Assembly (NCBI GenBank): GCA_013314775.1
Contig: JABUFB010000008.1
Coordinates: forward strand, 434,001-498,000
Length of the DNA: 64,000 nucleotides
Source of the DNA: Armatimonadota bacterium
GTDB lineage: Bacteria > Armatimonadota > Zipacnadia > Zipacnadales > JABUFB01
Direction of reading: 5' to 3'
Translations under genes and position numbers: made by a program
Shown: piece by piece, positions 15,775 through 55,349 of the stretch
Layout of the letters: each line of letters begins with the position of its first letter
Position numbering within the stretch: position 1 is the first letter of the stretch
Notes under the pieces: generated by a model
What the model was told of the DNA's origin: nothing
Database searches by the model: none
Seen by the model: the letters and a program-made list of their open reading frames with translations, nothing else

Positions 15775-17031
15775 TCACCGCCCGATCTCGAGCGTCTCTC
15801 CTGTTGCCAGGTCGGTGAACCTGGCCGACCCGTCCGGTTCGAATACCAGATCGAACAGGCCTTCGCCGTAGAAACGTGCCAGGGTGGGGTAACGCGACGC
15901 CGTCTCCCTCACCACGAAAGAATCTTTCCGGGACCCCACACCGATACTCGGGCGATCCGTACCCCATCGGGTCGATAACCGTGCAGCGCCGATGAACATG
16001 CCCTGCCACTGGTCCAGACGCAGACGCAGGCCGGGTACCTGTGGCGCACCGTCTGACAGGGACGAGATCGTGAGCCCGGGCGACGCTGTTATGTGCACCC
16101 CGCCCATTGACAGGTAGTTCGATTCCCACCTGATCCCCGCTTCGCTCAAGAGCAGGCGTTCGCCATCGCCGGTGGTCGCTTCCACAGTACGCATGCCATC
16201 CGAGGAGACTACAGGAGCGGGCAATGCGACGTCCCTTTTAGTTCGCGACTTCACCACCACGAAGAGATTGCTCCCATCGCTGATCCAGAACGCAAGCTGC
16301 CCTTGGTCAGGGCCGCGCACCACCCCAAGCCGATGCTGACCGACGGCGTGCAAGGTCCACTGTGCGCCGGGAGTTTCCGGCTCGGAAGCTGTCGCAAACA
16401 GGCAGTCTCCGATCTTCGCAAACACTCCCTGCCCTGTCTCGCTGAAGCCGAACTCCACCGTCCCGTGCTTTAGCGCGGCATCTTGCCGGGGTGCCACATT
16501 CCGCCGCGCCGCCGCCTCCAATTCCGCGAGTTCATCGGGCGACAGCTTCCTATCCGCGAGCAAGACCTCCCGGGTATGAAGCGCCACCCAGTCCAGCGAT
16601 AGACCTCGCGAGTCAGCGTTTGTGATGCGGAGCACATGTCTTCCCGCTGCCAACCTGAGCGGCGGGAGATCGAGCGTGGCGACCTCAAAGGCGTCCCAAG
16701 CGCCGGTTCCAGCCAGCGTCACCGACCCGAGCGACTTGCCATCGAGGGACAGCTCGCGCCGGGTGTCAGGCCAGCCCAGGCTGTAGCGTAGACTAATGAC
16801 GTACTCCCCCTCGGCGGGTACATCGAAGGCCAGCTCGAGCCACGGACCGGGGTCTTCCCAGTAACTGACAGTCTTCCCGCCCGATGCCTCTTTGCGCTCG
16901 ATCACCTGCACCGTCCCACCACCCTGGGCGGCCCATTTCTCGGCCTCCACCCGCAGCAGATCCCCCGCGCTCCAGCTCCAGACGGCACAGAGAACCAGCC
17001 CGGCAGCAAGTATCGACACCCATGGTCTCAT
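15775..17031 (-). CDS. Secreted protein with CBM6/35-like domain
   Basis: A 418-residue exported protein with a signal peptide of about 23 residues. Residues about 25-155 look like a CBM6/CBM35-type sugar-binding jelly roll: VEAEKWA near the start, a PGPWLELAFDVPAEGEYVISLRY segment, and a final LSLDWVALH strand. The rest, to residue 418, is beta-rich without a recognised domain. Its ATG lies within the stop of the large upstream gene (ATGA overlap), so both are translated together and probably act on the same glycan. Most likely it binds carbohydrate outside the cell; any catalytic role is unknown. Confidence 0.75.
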   Translation of the reverse strand: MRPWVSILAAGLVLCAVWSWSAGDLLRVEAEKWAAQGGGTVQVIERKEASGGKTVSYWEDPGPWLELAFDVPAEGEYVISLRYSLGWPDTRRELSLDGKSLGSVTLAGTGAWDAFEVATLDLPPLRLAAGRHVLRITNADSRGLSLDWVALHTREVLLADRKLSPDELAELEAAARRNVAPRQDAALKHGTVEFGFSETGQGVFAKIGDCLFATASEPETPGAQWTLHAVGQHRLGVVRGPDQGQLAFWISDGSNLFVVVKSRTKRDVALPAPVVSSDGMRTVEATTGDGERLLLSEAGIRWESNYLSMGGVHITASPGLTISSLSDGAPQVPGLRLRLDQWQGMFIGAARLSTRWGTDRPSIGVGSRKDSFVVRETASRYPTLARFYGEGLFDLVFEPDGSARFTDLATGETLEIGR

Positions 17032-20000
17032 CCCTCGACCACCACCGTCACGTGGGACTTTGCAGGGATCGTGACCGTGGCCTTCCCGCCCGCCACGTCG
17101 AGGATAGTGGCGTCGTGCTGTGGCGCAAACACCCGGGCCTGGCCCTCTCCTACCTGCAGATCCCGCTCCACACTTGCGTCGGATTCATTGTGCAGCACGG
17201 TCACCCTTCGGGCGCCTTCGGTGAAAGAGAAGCCGAAGATCGGGCCTTCGCGGATGGTCTGTACGTTTTCGGCCAGATCACTCTGGTACGGCAGCACTTC
17301 GGCGAGAAAATGGAACTGCCGGCCTGCGGTATAGCTGAAGGGTGGCGCATCGCCCGATGCGGCAGCGGCGTCCTTCAGGATAATCTCGCGACTTCGGTAC
17401 TTCTCGGGCTTATCCAGGAAGAAGGTCTCGCTGGGCGCGGTCTCGACACTGGCGAAACTGCTGTCGTGGATGCGGGTGATCAGGCTGCCATAGCGGAACA
17501 TGCCTTCCTGGCCGACCTCAAATTCGCGGTTCATCCCGAAGCGCAAGCGTCCCCAGACCCCGGCGCACGTTGTGTCCTCAACCGCGCGAATTGTCAGCAT
17601 GCCGATGAGCCGGTCCTTGCTCAGGAACCATTGCTGAAGCCCTTCCCACGGTTCATCGCTGCTGCCGTGGCCCCAGGCAGGGTGCGCTATGCGATACTTG
17701 ACGCAGAGGGTGGAAAAGTCGGGCGCAACAACGACCGACGGCTCCTCGCGGCCCGAGCAGTACCGGGCATTGTGCCAATGATCGCCGTCCGGCTTCAGTC
17801 GGGCCTCTACCGTGGCCACTTGCAGTGCGGCATCAAGTGGCAGCGGCTTACTGTTCCGGTCGCTCACCATGCATCCGACGAAGGTGTCTTTGCCGATTTC
17901 ACCCACCGGTGTCACGCGAGCGGTACCCGCGAAACCGAACTTGCCGTACCGGCCCCGAGGGCCCTGGATATCCTCGTCATACAGCAGCCAGTTGTCCCGG
18001 CGTGGCGAGGGCTCTATGTCTTTCCACCATGGGGCCGCGTAGACTGCGGCAAGCCCCCGGTCATACCCGTTCTGCGCGGCGTCCAGGGCCGCCAGCTTGT
18101 TCGCACCATCGTCGAACATTCCTGCGATCACGTCGGCCCCGGCTGGTGCCGCCGCGCTCCAGTAGTGTTTCCAGGAGCAGTCGGTGTAGGACTCCGTCAT
18201 GCCCTCAGAGTCATGCACAAGGGGGTAGTATCCGGCCGATCGGCGCAGGATATCTCGTGCCCGTTCATCACCCGTGACCTGGTAGTATCGCGCGATGAAG
18301 GTCACATTGAGCTGGTGGTAGACGTAGCACTCATTCTGCGGCCAGATGTAGGTCCATGCGCCATTGGGGTAGAGCGCATCAGACAGCCACTGGAGCATGG
18401 TGTCACGGTCGTCCCGGTATTTTTCATCCCCGAACATTCGCCAGGCCCATTCCATGATGAGCAGGTAGTGCACATCCATGTTGGGGTAGTATCGGGGTCT
18501 GTCGGGATCAAGCGGCTCGCGCGGCCCGTAGGTGCGGTACTGGTAATCGACAAGGGTCCGCAGTTCCCGCTGCCACTCCTCGCGTTTCGAGGGCAGGATC
18601 ACCCACGGATATTCCGCCTCCAGCATCAGCAGAGAGTCCATCATCGGCGCGATGCAGAAGCGGTTGATGTTCTCATCGCGGCCATAGATCGCTTCGCGGC
18701 GCGGGTTGAAGTCTCCACCGTCGTGGTTCTGCGTAATCGCCTGGTAGTGAACCAGAAGGCGCTTGAGCAAAGCCGGGCTGTGTCGCAGGGCGCTTCGCGG
18801 GTCCAACAGCCCCCAGGCCATCACTGCGCACTGCTCCCCGAGGGTCCGGAATGTCCACGCGTTGGCTATCTGGTTATAGCCCTCTTCGCCCTTCTTGTAG
18901 ACGGTGGTGTCCTTCGCGATGCCCGCAGCGTTCTGGTTGAGATTCGCGATATACGGATTGCCATCGGCGTCAGGCGGTTGGCTGACCGCGTGTGGTACCG
19001 CGGCGGCCTGAGCCAGGATCTCGTCTGCGCGGCGGCAGTAGTCCTCGACGTCCTCGAGGGTCGCCAGTGCCTGCGTTCCAAGGCCTGCGTCGATGGCCAA
19101 CTTTGCGTCATCCAGCGCCCATTCGAGGGTCGCCAGGAGGAGCTTCCAGTCATCACTGTCACTTGCCCGCTGGGCCAATTGGATTACGCCATCGGTGGTG
19201 GGCTCGAAGATCGCCCTTGCCTGCTCCAGCGCTGCTGCGTTCAATCGGCGTTCCTCCTCGATCTCTGCGATTCTCTGGGTGTCGGCTCCCAGATGCACGT
19301 CATCCCACCAGACTTTCCCTGCGGCGAAGAAGTTGAACAGGTACACGTGCGCAGCGGCCGTCTGAGCGGGGGCTTCGAAACGCACAGTGGTCTGCTTCCA
19401 CGTCTCGGACGGTTCGCCGTATGCATGGAACTCCCGGATCGTACGTCCCTCTGGATCCACCAGCGTTATCCGGGCATCCACTCCCTTGCGGGGGGCAGCT
19501 TGAGGGTGGCGAGTACGATACCAGCCCTGGAATACCCACAGACCGGGAGCAAGGGGCACACGGAGATCCCAGGAGCCGCGCTGCTCCTTGTCGGCACATT
19601 CCACCGACACGGAGCGTTCACCCGCGAAGGGATTGTCGGTCTCCCAGGTCATGACGCTGCCCAGGCCCCAGTCGCCGGCGGACCAGAAATCGGGCTTGCC
19701 CTGTCCGGTGAGGTCCAGTTCGAAGCCCGGGTTCGGCAGGAGGTTTGAGCCATCCAGGGCGGGCGGACCGCCGAGTTTGCCAGCTTCCGCCGCATACTGG
19801 TCGAGAATCGCAGACTGCTCCGGCGTGGGCGGCACCACGCGGATGTTATCGAAGGCGATCTCGGTGGTTCCGGTGCGCCTGCCCCCGGTAACGAACAGCT
19901 CGACGAAGAAGACCTGCGAGAGGTCGTCAGTGCGCAAGCGTCCGGCCGGTCCGGCGAAGTTGGTCAGCCGGAAGCTGATGCGCTTCCAGCCTGTGAAGTC

Positions 20001-20378
20001 CAACTCAACCGCGTCGCGCAGGTTGCGATAGTAGATCGGGCGTTCGGGGGCCTTGCGGCCCAGTTGCATGTCCAGCCTCCCCCCTTTCCCATCGCCGCGC
20101 ACGTCCAGCTCCACGGCCCAGGATCGCGAGAAGTCCGTGTCGGGGATGAAGCGGCTAAACCAGCCGAAATCAAACTCTCCGTAGGTGATCTTTCCCTCGA
20201 GAATCCCACCGCGATCTGTATCCTCGCCCAAGGAAATGACCGCGTTCGACTTGCAGCGCCAACCGTCGAGACTCTTGTCTTCAAAATCCCAGTTCACCGC
20301 GTCGTGCGCGACGGGGTTCTGAGCGGCGGCCAACTGGCTGAACCACAGAAGACAGATGAGGGCAGGGGCAAGGGGCAT
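17028..20378 (-). CDS. Large secreted alpha/alpha-toroid protein, putative polysaccharide lyase or hydrolase
   Basis: A 1116-residue exported protein. I chose the ATG at 20378 after GGAGG and before a signal peptide ending LAAAQ. Residues about 22-190 and 215-375 resemble two carbohydrate-binding jelly rolls (WDFEDKSLDGW at the first; NLLPNPGFELDLTG at the second, a CBM4/9-type opening). A helical linker follows. Residues about 490-790 carry repeated helices with PNMDVHYLLIMEWAWRMFGDEKYRD and NGAWTYIWPQNECYVYHQLNVTFIARYYQ, typical of an (alpha/alpha) toroid as in polysaccharide lyases and some glycosidases. The C-terminal 300 residues are beta-rich, as in the heparinase/PL8 architecture. Neither lyase nor hydrolase activity can be proven. 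The following CBM gene is coupled to it. Confidence 0.7.
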   Translation of the reverse strand: MPLAPALICLLWFSQLAAAQNPVAHDAVNWDFEDKSLDGWRCKSNAVISLGEDTDRGGILEGKITYGEFDFGWFSRFIPDTDFSRSWAVELDVRGDGKGGRLDMQLGRKAPERPIYYRNLRDAVELDFTGWKRISFRLTNFAGPAGRLRTDDLSQVFFVELFVTGGRRTGTTEIAFDNIRVVPPTPEQSAILDQYAAEAGKLGGPPALDGSNLLPNPGFELDLTGQGKPDFWSAGDWGLGSVMTWETDNPFAGERSVSVECADKEQRGSWDLRVPLAPGLWVFQGWYRTRHPQAAPRKGVDARITLVDPEGRTIREFHAYGEPSETWKQTTVRFEAPAQTAAAHVYLFNFFAAGKVWWDDVHLGADTQRIAEIEEERRLNAAALEQARAIFEPTTDGVIQLAQRASDSDDWKLLLATLEWALDDAKLAIDAGLGTQALATLEDVEDYCRRADEILAQAAAVPHAVSQPPDADGNPYIANLNQNAAGIAKDTTVYKKGEEGYNQIANAWTFRTLGEQCAVMAWGLLDPRSALRHSPALLKRLLVHYQAITQNHDGGDFNPRREAIYGRDENINRFCIAPMMDSLLMLEAEYPWVILPSKREEWQRELRTLVDYQYRTYGPREPLDPDRPRYYPNMDVHYLLIMEWAWRMFGDEKYRDDRDTMLQWLSDALYPNGAWTYIWPQNECYVYHQLNVTFIARYYQVTGDERARDILRRSAGYYPLVHDSEGMTESYTDCSWKHYWSAAAPAGADVIAGMFDDGANKLAALDAAQNGYDRGLAAVYAAPWWKDIEPSPRRDNWLLYDEDIQGPRGRYGKFGFAGTARVTPVGEIGKDTFVGCMVSDRNSKPLPLDAALQVATVEARLKPDGDHWHNARYCSGREEPSVVVAPDFSTLCVKYRIAHPAWGHGSSDEPWEGLQQWFLSKDRLIGMLTIRAVEDTTCAGVWGRLRFGMNREFEVGQEGMFRYGSLITRIHDSSFASVETAPSETFFLDKPEKYRSREIILKDAAAASGDAPPFSYTAGRQFHFLAEVLPYQSDLAENVQTIREGPIFGFSFTEGARRVTVLHNESDASVERDLQVGEGQARVFAPQHDATILDVAGGKATVTIPAKSHVTVVVEG

Positions 20379-20512
20379 CTCCGGACCTCCGGGCGGATGA
20401 TGGTCGGGGTTAGTTCGCCGCCGGGGGATGCCGCCCCTCCGGGAGGGAGGGCAATCCCGCACGGCGAAGCACTTGCGGTCAGCAACGACCATGCCCACTG
20501 GTGGTACCGTCC

Positions 20513-50101: not shown

Positions 50102-53100
50102 TTACTTCCTCCTCACCTGCGCACAGGCTTCCAGTAACGCGCGGCGCGTGGCGAAGTCCGGATAGTCCGCCGCGATGTCCGCGAGTTCCGGGAGGTTCTC
50201 CCGTGGCGTGACCTTGCCCAGGGCAACCGCCGCCTCGTGCCGCACCGTCGGGGCATTGTCAAAGTCTGCCAACAGACTACGCAGCAGCGGCGCGGCGGAA
50301 CGCTCCCGCAACTCGCCCAGGGCGTACACCGCAGCGGATCTGAAGAACGGGTTCATCGCCTTGAATACCCAGTGATTCGGCGGCGGGTTGAACCCGTACT
50401 CGGCTTCAGTGGGCTCTTCGCGCAAGACCTGCAAGGCGCATTCCACAGCGTCCGGGCCCCCGAGTCGCGCCAGTGAACGCAGGAGCATGAAGCAGACCCA
50501 CGAACGCTCCTCGGACACCGGCCTGCGCAGGTAATCTGCCACAACCGCTCTCATTCTCGGCGCGTAATCCGGGTCGAGGCAGACCACGGAAAGGATCTGC
50601 GCCGCCCGGGCAGCGTGAGTGTGAGGACGGATGTGGCTCTCGGCAAAGGGGCTCTGGCTAACGGGGATGTCCAGATCGTCCACGCGCACGGCGTCGGGGT
50701 CGCCCAGCCATGCCAGGCAGGTCTCCATCACCTCGGCTGCCCGACCACTGCGCTGGATCACCCGGGCAGTAAGCGCCTCGTAGCTGTCGAACTCGAACAG
50801 CAATGCGCGGTCCTTGTCCATGGGTACCGAGCGCAGCACGGCCGGCACGATCCGTCCTGTCTCGGTGGAGCCCATCCCGTCAAGCGCTTCCAGTATCCGG
50901 TAATGAACGGGCGATGAATGGCAGCCCATCAGCCAAGGATGATCCCCGCAACGAAGGGTGTACTCCTCGAAGATCGCGAGCTTGCTGAAACCATCTACCA
51001 GCGCCGCTTCGGCCTCCGGACCGCCGATCCGTCCCAGCGCTTCGGCCGCGGTCGCGGCGAGGTACACCGGGCGCTGGTTGAAGCCCGCTTCGCGGTCGCC
51101 GGGGAGGTCAACCGGCGCGAGATTCGCCTGCAGAATCCCGGAAAGCGCCGCAATATGCCCCGTATCGCCGCAGTTCCCCAGCGCCCGAAGAGCCGCCATC
51201 AGAACGCGCAGTTCAGCATCCGGATTTGCGGCTATCCACGCTGCCAGCGCATCGCCAGCCACCTTCCCGCCCACATGCCCCAGGGCTTCGATGCTCCTCC
51301 AAACCTCAAGCCGCTCCCGGGATCGCAGCCGGGCGCACAATTCGGTCTCATACGCATCCCAGTCCAGGTTGCGCAGCCATGCGCGCCAGCCAGCGGTCTT
51401 TTCCCCGTCTGGCAGAGAATGTGCCGTGAGGTGCTCCAGCGCCGATCGGGCCGCACAGGCGACGATGGAATGCGCATCGGCCACGGAATCCGCGAGGGGC
51501 AGAAGCGCCCGCCTATTGCCGCACGCCGACAATGCAACCGCCGCAGCTACGCGCACCTCCGGCATTTCATCCTGGAGCAGTCCCACCAGGTCAGGAACCG
51601 CGCTTTCGTCGCGCAGGACAGCCAGGCGATTGGCCGCGGCGATGCGCTCCGCGGGGTCTGGGTGGTGAACTCGAGCAAGCAGAACGGCCTGCTCGAGTCG
51701 CCTGCCCGACGGGAGACGCTCCGGTGCGTCGTCAGTCAAGGCGCCCTGCCGGTAGAGGTTGATGCTCCCGACTTCGCGGAATCGGTCCAGTTGCAGGTTG
51801 AGCACGCCGCCGTTTGCCCCGTTATTTGCGCGAAAACGGTGGGGCTCGGCGTCATCCACCATCCGCAGTGGACGCTCCGCGGTGGCTCTGGGGCGCACCG
51901 CAGGAGGCGCGAAGCCGGTCTGCGCATGGCAACCCACGCAAGACCGCCGTTCGCCGGGTCTCACGTAAACCCAGCTCAGTTCGCTGATCACTGCCCGGCC
52001 TTCCCCATCGACAGCCTGCATGGACAGAGCGCGATCCGCCGGAACCTCCACGTAGAAAGACCCGTCCTCGTCCAGCGGCACCGTCCCCAGTTCCCGGCCC
52101 TCAGTGCCAATGTGCATGTAGATGCTGCGGGTCGGGGCCAGTGTGAAGGGCTTTCCCTCGTAGATGCGAACCGCCCTGATGCGCGAGACGTCAGCCGACG
52201 TGTGCCGGGTGTTCCGGGCATTCTGGCAGTACAAGAACCCCGTGGGTATCCGTTCCGGCCCGCTCCCTTCGGGGGTCGAGACCATATCCGGGATAGCCGG
52301 CGGCACGGGTTTCGGCCCCGCATAGACCACGGAATGGATCGCGTCGGAGACCATCCCCGGGTCAGCACCCAACTCATCGGCCAGCCCCAGATCCTCCCCG
52401 TCCAATATCTCCGTAGCAAGGCCCACTTTGGGGTCCAGAAGACAGATGCGCCAATTATCGCGGTCTGTGCAGACCAACCGACCGTCAGGCAGCGGAGAGA
52501 AGTCGTAGGGCAGGTATGATCCGGCTTTCCTGCCGCGCTGGTTGACTGAAAGCACAACGCCCTGCTCGGAGATGGCCGCAACGATTCCTCCAGGGAGCGG
52601 CGCGGGAACGCCTGCCCCGAACACCCGAAGCCAGGCTGAGTTCGACTCCCCGGCGGTGAAACGGTCCCAGGTCATTGGGAGGCGGTCCGGCCCGATGATG
52701 ATGCGGCCACCGGTACCGTCCGGGCGCACCTGATGGATGTGCGTCTCGACCTTGGCGCGTTCCAGGAAGTTATCGCAGCGAATGAAGGCAAGGGACCCGT
52801 CGCTGCAGACGCGGGGCTCACGGTCCGCCACGATGTGGCTGGTGATCCGTCGGATATCCGCACCCTGTGGATTGCAGGAAAACAGTGAGAACGCAGGGAC
52901 ACCGTGGTACTCTTCGGCGCTACCGGTGCGTGTCGAGCTAAAGGCGATGCGCCCGTCGGGGAGGGGCTCGGGGTCGAAGTCGTGGAAGGCGCCTGAGGTA
53001 ATCTGACGCAGGCCAGCGCCGTCGATGCCCACCTCAAACAAGTGGAAATACGGGTCGCCTTCGGGCGCCATGGCGAAGTACACAGTCCGCCCGTCGAAGG

Positions 53101-54481
53101 AGACTGCGGGGGCCCCGAGCAGGCCCCCTTTCGCGTCACACAAGACCCGCAGGACACCACCAGGCCGCATTGGTCCGTAGGAACAGAGCCTCTTTCCGAG
53201 GGCCGCCGGACTGGCTGTGTCGAACTCCGTGTACGCCCGGGTGCCGCTGATGTTCTGGATGAAGTTCTCGCCCCGGGAACCTGTCATGAACAGTCCCTGG
53301 ACGAACACGACCGCGCCCTGATGCACGGGGTCGGCATAGTCCGTGATGCGCGGGACAGGCAGAGAGAGCACTCCCTGCGCTGCAGGTGGGATGTGCAGCG
53401 CCCTTCCCCACGGTCCCATTTTGCTATCACCCAGGACTCTCGCCGGTTCCCAGCTCGTATGGGCGAATCCCGGCCGCTGCCAGCCCTTGGGTGCATCCTG
53501 TGAGCACACCCAGTCTTCCCCGGTGGACCATACCAACGGCTGAGCCCCGGGCTGGGCGACGGCGATCTTCGCGATGAGTGCCGCCGCACCCTCGAGGGTA
53601 TTCAAGGCACGCACTGCAATGGTGTTCATACCCGGCGCCAGGACTTTTGTGAGATCGAATCGCGCAGGCTGGGACCACTCCGAACCGCGGCCGATGCGGG
53701 TCCCGTTCACGTACAGCGCGAATGCATTGTCCGCAGTGATGAGCGCCTGGGCGCGGGCTCCAGCGGCCATTTCGGGCACATCAATGACGGTGCGGAAGTA
53801 CCGCGGTCCCGCGGGGAGATTCATCCCCCGAGCGGCCTCCTGGGTCCAGATCCACTTCGCGCCTTCGAAATCAAGGGCAGGCACTGTGCTCCTGGGCAGG
53901 CCCATATCTCCCCAGGGGGGCATACCGAACTCGCCATGGACCGTAACCGGATCCCAGCCAGAGTCATCGAAGCCAGGCCTCTGCCAGCCGGGCGCCGCCC
54001 TGTCACTCCCGCGCCAGAGGGCATCCGTGACAAAGACAATTGGTGTCCCCGATCCGTCCACAAGGCTCAGCTTGACGATGATCCCCGCCGGTCCGGCAAG
54101 GGTGTTCACACCCTCCACCGCAATGCAGTTCGTGCCCGGAAGCAGCAGGCCGGAGCTCTCGGTGGTGAGCGGCTTATTCCACCCGTCCGGGTCTCTCATG
54201 CGGCTCAGAATCTGCGTGCCGTTGAGGAAGACTGTCAGGTAGTTGTCGGCGGTGGCGGTGATCTGCGCGACCCCGCCCTCTGCTCCCGCCGGCAGGGTGA
54301 ACTCGCCGCGGAAGTACCGAGTGCACTGATCGGCATTGAGTCCGGCGGCATCGGAAGTCCAGATCCACGCTGCCCCGTCCAGATCAGGCGCCGGGGCAGC
54401 GCCACACGGTGGTAAGCCAAGCAGCAACACGACGGTGGAAGAGAGAGCGAGTATCGACACGTGAACGCGACCGGAGCCCAT
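50102..54481 (-). CDS. Secreted heme-motif protein, HzsA-like propeller with HEAT repeats
   Basis: A 1459-residue exported protein. The start follows GGAGGTGA, and a signal peptide (about 28 residues) follows. Two similar galactose-binding-like sandwiches (about 32-165 and 185-320) share AWIWT or KWIWTQ openings. A TolB/HzsA-middle-like propeller follows (about 400-880), with YFAMAPEGDPYFHLFEVGIDG. A single c-type heme motif, CVGCH (C848, C851, H852), lies near its end, in the RRSCVGCHAQTGF segment typical of HzsA_M-containing planctomycete-type proteins. The C-terminal region (about 930-1459) has many alpha-helical HEAT repeats with alternating hydrophobic helices. It may be an extracytoplasmic redox or scaffold protein. 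It is divergent from the creatininase-family gene. Confidence 0.75.
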   Translation of the reverse strand: MGSGRVHVSILALSSTVVLLLGLPPCGAAPAPDLDGAAWIWTSDAAGLNADQCTRYFRGEFTLPAGAEGGVAQITATADNYLTVFLNGTQILSRMRDPDGWNKPLTTESSGLLLPGTNCIAVEGVNTLAGPAGIIVKLSLVDGSGTPIVFVTDALWRGSDRAAPGWQRPGFDDSGWDPVTVHGEFGMPPWGDMGLPRSTVPALDFEGAKWIWTQEAARGMNLPAGPRYFRTVIDVPEMAAGARAQALITADNAFALYVNGTRIGRGSEWSQPARFDLTKVLAPGMNTIAVRALNTLEGAAALIAKIAVAQPGAQPLVWSTGEDWVCSQDAPKGWQRPGFAHTSWEPARVLGDSKMGPWGRALHIPPAAQGVLSLPVPRITDYADPVHQGAVVFVQGLFMTGSRGENFIQNISGTRAYTEFDTASPAALGKRLCSYGPMRPGGVLRVLCDAKGGLLGAPAVSFDGRTVYFAMAPEGDPYFHLFEVGIDGAGLRQITSGAFHDFDPEPLPDGRIAFSSTRTGSAEEYHGVPAFSLFSCNPQGADIRRITSHIVADREPRVCSDGSLAFIRCDNFLERAKVETHIHQVRPDGTGGRIIIGPDRLPMTWDRFTAGESNSAWLRVFGAGVPAPLPGGIVAAISEQGVVLSVNQRGRKAGSYLPYDFSPLPDGRLVCTDRDNWRICLLDPKVGLATEILDGEDLGLADELGADPGMVSDAIHSVVYAGPKPVPPAIPDMVSTPEGSGPERIPTGFLYCQNARNTRHTSADVSRIRAVRIYEGKPFTLAPTRSIYMHIGTEGRELGTVPLDEDGSFYVEVPADRALSMQAVDGEGRAVISELSWVYVRPGERRSCVGCHAQTGFAPPAVRPRATAERPLRMVDDAEPHRFRANNGANGGVLNLQLDRFREVGSINLYRQGALTDDAPERLPSGRRLEQAVLLARVHHPDPAERIAAANRLAVLRDESAVPDLVGLLQDEMPEVRVAAAVALSACGNRRALLPLADSVADAHSIVACAARSALEHLTAHSLPDGEKTAGWRAWLRNLDWDAYETELCARLRSRERLEVWRSIEALGHVGGKVAGDALAAWIAANPDAELRVLMAALRALGNCGDTGHIAALSGILQANLAPVDLPGDREAGFNQRPVYLAATAAEALGRIGGPEAEAALVDGFSKLAIFEEYTLRCGDHPWLMGCHSSPVHYRILEALDGMGSTETGRIVPAVLRSVPMDKDRALLFEFDSYEALTARVIQRSGRAAEVMETCLAWLGDPDAVRVDDLDIPVSQSPFAESHIRPHTHAARAAQILSVVCLDPDYAPRMRAVVADYLRRPVSEERSWVCFMLLRSLARLGGPDAVECALQVLREEPTEAEYGFNPPPNHWVFKAMNPFFRSAAVYALGELRERSAAPLLRSLLADFDNAPTVRHEAAVALGKVTPRENLPELADIAADYPDFATRRALLEACAQVRRK

Positions 54482-54632
54482 GCGCTCACCTCCAGCGCGT
54501 TTCTTCGACGTCCTGCGGTGCCGGGCCTTCTTCCAGGAAGGCCGTCCCAACGCGGGTGGCGAACTGCAATTCATCCGCAAACACATCAGGCCTTCGCCGC
54601 CTGCAGCGGCAAGACGACAAGTGAGGATACCC

Positions 54633-55349
54633 GTGGATAAGGTCCAGTGGGAAGAAATGTTCCGGTATGAGTTCGAGGGCGCACTGGAGCGCTGCCCTAT
54701 TTGCTATCTTCCCTTCGGCACCCTCGAACGTCACGGCGCGCATTTGCCCTACGGGCAGGACGCCATGAAAGCCCACGGGTTGTGCGTAGCCGCGGCGCGC
54801 AAACATGGCGGTGTGGTTGCTCCGCCCTTGCACTGGGGAACACACGGCAACGTGTTCCAGGAGGACTTCAAGCGCGGCACAGGCTGGGGGAACGTCACCC
54901 AGCCCACGGGGAGCGTCTACATCACTGAGGGCGTGCTCATGGCCCTCGCACTGGAGATGTTCCGGGAAGTCGAATACTGCGGCTTCAAGGTGATCGTCGC
55001 CCTCACGGGCCACTACCCGGAAGTTCAGGTGACCGCGCTCAAGTTCGCCGCCGAGCAGTTTATGGTCACGAGCAAGGTGCGGGTCTGGGCCCTGGCTGAA
55101 TACGAGGTGTCCGGGGAGGTCGAGGTCGGTCGGGACCACGCGGGAAAATGGGAGACCTCACTCTTCTGGGCCATGTACCCCGAACTTACGGACATGACCC
55201 GTCTGCCCGACCCGGAGACCGGCGGCTACGAGTTCACCAGTCCGGCCGCACACGAGGCCAGTCCGGAACTCGGCGCGAAGATGGTGGACTATATCGCCGA
55301 CCAGCTTGGCCTGGGAGCCCTCAAGCTGCTGGAGGAGACAGGCGCCTGA
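54633..55349 (+). CDS. Creatininase-family amidohydrolase
   Basis: A 238-residue metal-dependent enzyme of the creatinine amidohydrolase superfamily. Motif GTLERHGAHLPYGQD gives the metal-binding E32, H34 and D43. GHYPEVQ takes the place of the usual NGHGGN. Start: the GTG at 54633 follows GAGGA at 5 bases; an upstream GTG at 54621 is possible. No signal peptide. Relatives act on creatinine, formamidopyrimidines or mycofactocin-like peptides, so the substrate is open. It is divergent from the heme/HEAT gene and convergent with the small membrane protein. Confidence 0.85.
   Translation: MDKVQWEEMFRYEFEGALERCPICYLPFGTLERHGAHLPYGQDAMKAHGLCVAAARKHGGVVAPPLHWGTHGNVFQEDFKRGTGWGNVTQPTGSVYITEGVLMALALEMFREVEYCGFKVIVALTGHYPEVQVTALKFAAEQFMVTSKVRVWALAEYEVSGEVEVGRDHAGKWETSLFWAMYPELTDMTRLPDPETGGYEFTSPAAHEASPELGAKMVDYIADQLGLGALKLLEETGA

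Follow-up and report, generated by a model that had tools for sequence, protein, structure and literature searches.

Why would one protein of an Armatimonadota bacterium join a single heme c motif to two sugar-binding-like domains and a long HEAT-repeat solenoid? The question arises from a gene in a 64,000-nucleotide stretch of DNA (the window, whose positions are used throughout), for which the original prediction had suggested oxidative processing of a carbohydrate or electron transfer at the cell surface. The coordinates given for the gene, 50102 to 54481, proved correct. Translation of this interval on the plus strand meets 10 stops, and the gene therefore lies on the minus strand, as do all features described below. 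Its open frame encodes 1459 amino acids and starts with the ATG at 54481, which is preceded by a strong Shine–Dalgarno sequence (GGAGGTGAG). Residues 1–28 (MGSGRVHVSILALSSTVVLLLGLPPCGA; 54398–54481) form a hydrophobic N-terminal segment that, by inspection of the sequence, resembles a signal peptide, and the product is probably exported. This segment is followed by two CBM67-like domains, a TolB-like propeller, an HZS_alpha (hydrazine synthase alpha middle) domain that terminates in CVGCH, and the HEAT repeats.

A search for the same arrangement in related genomes, which had been proposed as a check, employed the peptide patterns W[IV][YF]VRPGE and DH[PS][WA]LM[GA]C, both of which exclude the heme motif. 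The resulting family sample comprises 81 sequences from about six phyla, and relatives can be aligned along the full length of the gene. Judged from these sequences, the propeller–HZS_alpha–HEAT chain is widespread across phyla. The HEAT-linked proteins form a single clade (support 100/100).

Both predicted sugar-binding-like domains were found and belong to the CBM67-like type. Domain 1 (residues ~30–193; 53903–54394), which carries an ADN motif at residues 78–80, matches PDB entry 3w5m (E 1.9e-22) and the lectin 6kbj (E 1.2e-27), and domain 2 (residues ~203–362; 53396–53875), which carries the pair D251–N252, matches the same two structures (6kbj, E 5.5e-35; 3w5m, E 1.8e-19). The two-domain form that includes domain 1 is present in 8 of the 81 family members, this protein among them, and most relatives have one such domain. 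We take the Asp-Asn at positions 179–180, counted along chain 3w5m, to be the CBM67 calcium/sugar site. Because this pair is kept as D251 and N252 in all 71 members bearing a CBM67-like domain, sugar binding is supported. The corresponding pair of the related lectin is Asp-Asp, and the role of the acidic pair at the calcium/sugar site of such lectins has been described (PMC11512411). Unlike CBM67 and the lectin, the domains studied here are joined to a heme protein rather than to a glycosidase or existing as a free lectin.

The central part of the chain had been described as a propeller ending in CVGCH. Both the motif and the HzsA-middle-like domain are present, but the motif closes a separate HZS_alpha domain that follows the propeller. 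The propeller (residues ~380–735; 52277–53344) is of the TolB/PD40 type according to PF07676 and structural matches, and the HZS_alpha domain (residues ~745–852; 51926–52249) matches PF18582 with 74.9 bits (cut-off 26.6; E 7.5e-21). Structure prediction, also proposed at the outset, yielded a model of these two domains (pLDDT 91.4, pTM 0.93) that matches TolB (Z 25.6) and reveals the fold of HzsA, the hydrazine synthase alpha subunit (5c2v_D; Z 26.0, 3.6 Å across 461 residues). The CVGCH motif (residues 848–852; 51926–51940) is the only CxxCH in the protein. Its CxGCH form recurs in 81 of 81 family members, which rules out a chance motif, and its two Cys and its His are likewise invariant in 27 of 27 diheme HzsA-like relatives. 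Because the motif is invariant and aligned with the CSGCH of HzsA heme alpha-I, one heme c is very probably bound covalently in the HZS_alpha domain.

Attachment of this heme would require a maturation system, and the original prediction named the lack of such genes as a reason to abandon its claim. That lack is ruled out because the genome has both CcsB (TIGR03144, 194 bits; cut-off 187.6) and ResB (PF05140, 197.5 bits), encoded outside the window within the genome's cluster of HzsA-like genes. This is system II; a search of the genome for CcmE (system I) gave no match. Within the class, ResB is present in 12 of 14 HZS_alpha-bearing genomes versus 7 of 32 genomes lacking the domain (Fisher 7.7e-5). 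Across the phylum, HZS_alpha is only weakly associated with the presence of any maturation system (23/26 versus 84/125, p 0.033), and lineage confounds this association. Neither ResB nor CcmE was found in 3 of the 26 HZS_alpha-bearing genomes, two of which (G004 and G020) are more than 90% complete, and these genomes would fit a protein whose CxxCH serves a metal-binding or structural role without heme. The His of the HzsA alpha-I motif ligates zinc rather than heme iron (PMC12607021), so the chemistry of a CxxCH motif can shift. Nevertheless, the invariance of the Cys, Cys, and His residues, the co-occurrence with ResB, and the location of ResB-CcsB genes among HzsA-like genes render a heme-free motif very unlikely.

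If heme is bound, does the protein act as hydrazine synthase? Both this protein and HzsA of Kuenenia (PDB 5c2v) have the propeller and middle domain fold, and both have a CxGCH at the site of heme alpha-I; the lead-in to the motif is also similar (LTWAYLRP versus LSWVYVRP). In addition, the genome encodes a beta-gamma-like protein. Such features would suit an unrecognized anammox-like organism in which the protein serves as hydrazine synthase or as a different enzyme of the nitrogen cycle. However, the unusual heme ligand Tyr591 of HzsA, located four residues past CxxCH (CSGCHYGSY), is replaced by Gly in this protein, and no Tyr occurs at positions +1 to +6 past CxGCH in any of the 81 sequences. 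The alpha-II cytochrome domain is missing, whereas CBM67 domains and the HEAT solenoid are added, and the gene does not adjoin beta and gamma genes in its genome. The score against the NCBIfam HzsA model NF052339 is 44 bits, below the cut-off of 800, and that of the beta-gamma-like protein is 215 bits versus a hydrazine synthase beta-gamma cut-off of 1250. The missing Tyr591 and the NF052339 score rule out hydrazine synthase proper, and we consider any such nitrogen-cycle role exceedingly improbable.

HzsA homologues are already known from non-anammox bacteria (clades I–IV), and those studied were likewise judged not to be hydrazine synthases (PMC12758564). Like our family, they are HZS_alpha-type proteins without Tyr591, some with a single heme, and they are encoded close to fused beta-gamma homologues. 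Propeller Cys residues in our family reach a conservation of 58/77 at most. The zinc ligand of HzsA is Cys303, a residue that not every anammox bacterium retains (PMC12758564). The HAO-type profile PF13447 gave no match, and the controls were silent as well.

The same genome encodes ten multi-heme paralogs. They carry a second CxxCH ~50 residues past the first and keep the alpha-II cytochrome domain, and their profile matches both HzsA heme regions, whereas the HEAT clade lacks the second motif and this protein has the HEAT solenoid in place of the domain. The second-CxxCH site of diheme relatives corresponds here to the segment FRANNxANGGVLNxQxDRFRE (residues 883–903; 51773–51835), in which R884, N886, and N887 occur in 81 of 81 family members and in 27 of 27 diheme relatives the position of R902 is taken by the His of the second CxxCH. 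The clade also has invariant polar residues of its own, distinct from those of diheme relatives. In the propeller these are E524-Y525-H526 (52904–52912; H526 in 76/76), where position 525 is Cys in 27 of 27 diheme proteins, and the stretch R568...R575-K577-E579-H583 (52733–52780; H583 in 76/76), from which the diheme relatives depart at R575, K577, E579, and H583. Clade-specific residues of the HZS_alpha domain are C752 (73/80) and H790 (81/81), the latter not conserved among diheme relatives.

The HEAT part, predicted at about 500 residues, spans about 520 (residues ~935–1455; 50117–51679). It matches PF13646 with 104.1 bits (cut-off 27.7; E 4.8e-30), its model is all-helical (pLDDT 94.1), and a structure search retrieved generic alpha-solenoids, importins, and alphaReps only. 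An ordered loop within it, DHPWLMGCHSSPVHY (residues 1180–1194; 50900–50944), holds a His/Cys cluster (H1181 74/74, C1187 72/74, H1188 69/74, H1193 73/74) that may bind a metal or serve in docking. A weak HEAT match was the sole hint of an enzyme that binds metal in the manner of deoxyhypusine hydroxylase, and we consider this reading improbable.

HEAT solenoids usually bind proteins. The protein might thus be a noncatalytic electron-transfer or scaffold subunit, in which a six-coordinate heme relay (for example bis-His, with His852 and His790) is combined with docking of heme proteins on a glycan through the CBM67 and HEAT domains. The conservation of H790 fits this proposal, as do the heme-protein genes adjacent to some relatives described below. 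However, the clade-specific invariant polar residues of the propeller are too many for a mere relay, and the homologous HzsA heme is the proposed active site (PMC12607021). Because that heme has been described in this way, a single heme is not by itself proof of simple electron transfer, and we regard the relay as unlikely.

The window is rich in glycan genes, including GH123, melibiase, GH141-type beta-helices, DUF4838, and CBM9. Within its annotated part the gene has carbohydrate genes around it and no heme-protein neighbor; the genome's cluster of HzsA-like and beta-gamma-like genes, which contains its sole CCP/MauG-type match (the beta-gamma-like protein), lies elsewhere. Among relatives with usable flanks, only 18 of 67 have a CxxCH-bearing neighbor. 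The family gene stands in an operon-like context in six loci (L068, L054, L124, L098, L125, and L067), where several neighbors were typed as HZS_alpha or CCP/MauG proteins, and in some relatives it shares an array with genes for diheme HzsA-like proteins and for beta-gamma-like ones (CCP/MauG).

This glycan setting bears on the proposal that the heme is a catalytic center at the cell surface and directly oxidizes a carbohydrate to which the CBM67 domains hold on. The intact CBM67 site, the presence of galactose-binding-type or laminin-G-type domains in several of the multi-heme paralogs, and the clade-specific polar residues are all in keeping with it. However, binding modules tell where a protein is located, not what it does, and we know of no carbohydrate oxidase with the HzsA-like propeller and middle-domain fold. 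A COX1-type oxidase was not found in the genome, so that an obvious electron acceptor is lacking. A carbohydrate role has been suggested for other cytochromes of these phyla, the Planctomycete-specific c-type cytochromes (PSCyt), some of which have carbohydrate-binding modules and are encoded near glycan and sulfatase genes; their domain families differ from ours, and neither HZS_alpha nor HEAT is named for them in the accessible portion of that report (PMC5615132). On balance, direct carbohydrate oxidation seems doubtful.

We lean modestly toward a different explanation, namely that the protein is a glycan-docked, single-heme subunit of an uncharacterized hydrazine-synthase-like heme complex that is not hydrazine synthase. 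The Ccs (ResB-CcsB) system would attach one heme c, and, with no counterpart of the HzsA residue Tyr591, His852 would act as a normal proximal ligand. Glu524, Tyr525, His526, Arg575, Lys577, Glu579, His583, His790, and Cys752 may line the distal side or a substrate pocket between the propeller and middle domain. Through its CBM67 domains the protein would be anchored to a glycan of the rhamnose or galactose type. The HEAT solenoid would stand in for the second heme by giving another heme protein a surface to dock on; this partner would be either diheme HzsA-like or beta-gamma-like (a YVTN propeller with a diheme CCP/MauG module), of the kinds whose genes directly adjoin those of the HEAT clade in some relatives. 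The complex would thus act at the glycan surface. We infer the pocket and docking roles from sequence conservation.

The arrangement had been thought new. This holds for the HEAT and CBM67 fusions to an HZS_alpha protein, of which our literature search found no description, and the HEAT-linked family is apparently uncharacterized. It does not hold for HzsA homologues outside anammox, already published, nor for the propeller–HZS_alpha–HEAT chain, which is widespread; the text of PMC12758564 contains no HEAT repeats, no carbohydrate or galactose terms, and neither Armatimonadota nor Verrucomicrobiota. More speculatively, and with low confidence, a widespread glycan-binding, HzsA-like multi-heme complex (a HEAT-linked alpha with one heme, a diheme alpha, and a CCP/MauG-type beta-gamma) may oxidize or cleave a polysaccharide or glycan-linked substrate by a heme chemistry undescribed so far, and hydrazine synthase may have arisen from such stock rather than by de novo invention.

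No function is known for the relatives of hydrazine synthase, itself a unique enzyme. The heme alpha-I scaffold is in wide use beyond anammox bacteria and there lacks the unusual Tyr ligand, and in the HEAT clade a HEAT scaffold takes the place of the second heme domain and sugar-binding domains are added. Establishing the function of any one member would indicate what the hydrazine synthase fold does beyond anammox, and functional study of the clade could uncover new heme chemistry on glycans.

The gene encoding the exported HZS_alpha-CVGCH-HEAT protein is a single ORF on the minus strand, found by ORF search to run from 54481 to 50102, with GGAGGTGAG just 5′ of the ATG at 54481; the plus-strand translation over 50102–54481 contains 10 stops. 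Its 1459-residue product consists, in order, of a signal-peptide-like stretch (judged by inspection), two CBM67-like domains, a TolB/PD40-like propeller, an HZS_alpha domain, and HEAT repeats. Profile searches with this protein yielded 74.9 bits for HZS_alpha (PF18582, cut-off 26.6) and 104 bits for the HEAT repeats (PF13646). The original prediction of two sugar-binding-like domains and HEAT repeats in one chain holds. That prediction also described a propeller ending in CVGCH. The motif is indeed present (residues 848–852), but it ends the separate HZS_alpha domain, and the wording had merged two domains. A creatininase-family gene (54480–55349, plus strand) lies divergent from this gene, and the start codons overlap if the ATG at 54480 is used.

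Relatives were sought in one genome per species by using a HEAT-type alignment and the patterns W[IV][YF]VRPGE and DH[PS][WA]LM[GA]C, neither of which includes the heme motif. The scan confirmed 101 relatives, and 80 of these were retained; record labels are Planctomycetota, Verrucomicrobiota (including Akkermansiaceae), Lentisphaerae, Kiritimatiellaeota, Armatimonadetes, and Hydrogenedentota. Residues C848, C851, and H852 (window protein numbering) occur in 81/81 aligned family sequences, and CVGCH aligns with CSGCH of heme alpha-I in HzsA, the hydrazine synthase alpha subunit. Judged from sequence, the heme motif is real.

A lack of cytochrome c maturation genes had been named as grounds for refutation, and we found instead that ResB and CcsB are encoded in the window's genome (CcsB TIGR03144, 194 bits versus a cut-off of 187.6). 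Within the window's class, ResB is present in 12/14 HZS_alpha-bearing versus 7/32 HZS_alpha-lacking genomes, for which the Fisher p value of 7.7e-5 is only indicative because the genomes are related. Most HZS_alpha genomes beyond this class carry CcmE instead, and the association of HZS_alpha with maturation genes is weak across all 151 genomes (p = 0.033). No COX1-type oxidase was found in the window's genome by a search that gave matches in 8/14 control genomes, so the HzsA-like and beta-gamma-like heme proteins may be main clients of its ResB-CcsB machinery.

An AlphaFold2 model of residues 370–1459, based on a 56-sequence alignment (pLDDT 91.4, pTM 0.93), has HzsA as its best PDB match (Z 26.0, 461 residues, 3.6 Å), followed by TolB propellers. 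HzsA heme alpha-I is unusual in having Tyr591 as its proximal ligand, with the His of the motif bound to zinc (PMC12607021); Tyr591 lies at +4 after the motif (CSGCHYGSY). In contrast, no Tyr occurs at +1 to +6 after CxGCH in any of the 81 family members. HzsA-type ligation is therefore absent, which would leave His852 free to act as an ordinary proximal ligand. Other HzsA homologues, judged not to be hydrazine synthases, likewise lack Tyr591 (PMC12758564). Identity with HzsA was rejected on this missing residue and on the NCBIfam HzsA model (44 bits versus a cut-off of 800).

This gene is one of 11 HZS_alpha genes in the window's genome, and the other ten all encode a second CxxCH ~50 residues past the first; their profile matches both HzsA heme regions. 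In the studied family, Arg902 occupies the position of the second motif's His and HEAT repeats follow, such that, unlike in HzsA, a HEAT solenoid takes the place of the second heme domain. A 48-protein maximum-likelihood tree set C-terminal-HEAT, N-terminal-HEAT, and diheme proteins each apart with 100/100 support, with both HEAT kinds on one side of a midpoint root used for drawing only. The N-terminal-HEAT single-heme proteins (L044:3251–6859, L045:4021–6342, and L068:14309–17698) are a sister clade with most clade-specific residues in common; the repeats are directly seen in L044 and L068, and L045 ends at a contig edge. Set against 27 diheme relatives, the two HEAT kinds have in common E524-Y525-H526, R575, K577, E579, H583, C752, H790, and R841, which we infer could line a heme or substrate pocket. 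Position 525 is Cys in all 27 diheme relatives, whose propellers also have an invariant Tyr at the equivalent of 571 (27/27); at 525 and 571 the HEAT clade has Tyr and Asn, respectively, a possible active-site switch. A second invariant cluster, DHxxLMxCHxxxxH (residues 1180–1193), falls by alignment and model within an ordered HEAT-domain loop and may serve in metal binding or docking. One diheme paralog (L036:2114–6427) carries an extra C-terminal Mala_s_1-like/arylsulfotransferase-like propeller and a laminin-G domain.

Sequence matches to the CBM67 of alpha-L-rhamnosidase 3w5m, and to the Pleurotus lectins 6kbj and 6t1d, were obtained for each of the two N-terminal domains. An Asp-Asn pair is present in 71/71 members possessing the second CBM67-like domain, and the two-domain form occurs in 8/81 family members. 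Residues 179–180 of 3w5m are presumably the calcium- and sugar-holding pair. The acidic pair of related mushroom lectins is described as binding calcium and sugar (PMC11512411). Glycan genes abound around the gene (GH123, melibiase, DUF4838, GH141-type and other beta-helices, BNR, and CBM9), and this region also holds a 1156-residue ORF (17028–20498, minus strand) with no Pfam match at 1e-5. Direct oxidation of carbohydrate by the protein is a less likely rival to the mechanism proposed below.

No heme-protein neighbor of the gene was found in the annotated part of the window. Of the 67 relatives whose flank reaches at least 2.5 kb on one or the other side, 18 have a CxxCH-bearing neighbor. 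The tightest, on the same strand and nearly touching, occur at five loci where domain typing covered most neighbors: a triheme HzsA-like gene 16 bases from the HEAT-type gene (L054), a diheme one at 7 bases (L125), a YVTN propeller plus CCP/MauG (L124 and L098), and an array of beta-gamma-like, two triheme HzsA-like, HEAT, and N-terminal-HEAT variant genes in succession (L068). A ten-CxxCH protein near another HEAT-type gene (L117:14961–17852), grouped with beta-gamma-like genes, resembles multi-heme beta-gamma homologues of clade I (PMC12758564). 

Elsewhere in the window's genome, contig C5 carries at ~65–90 kb (L032 and L033) five diheme/triheme HzsA-like genes, a fused beta-gamma-like gene, ResB-CcsB, and an FGE-sulfatase-like gene, together making up a hydrazine-synthase-like gene set in a probable armatimonadote. 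Between two of the HzsA-like genes, 72494–74305 encodes the genome's only CCP/MauG match. This protein shares 43% identity with the L068 beta-gamma-like protein, and the hydrazine synthase beta-gamma model scores it at 215 bits against a cut-off of 1250. As a rival to the mechanism proposed below, a pure relay role for the studied protein is about as unlikely as direct carbohydrate oxidation.

The HzsA-like superfamily beyond anammox bacteria is already known (PMC12758564). In the open-licence literature, we found no account of single-heme proteins linked to HEAT repeats that form a separate clade with distinctive conserved candidate pocket residues and CBM67 modules. Comparison establishes the architecture, motif, fold, absent HzsA ligand, HEAT replacement of the second heme domain, conservation of the sugar site, and maturation genes. 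In the mechanism we propose, heme would be attached to CVGCH and ligated by His852, the clade-specific residues would form a pocket, and the HEAT solenoid would be a docking surface, with the protein anchored to glycan and belonging to a larger heme complex.
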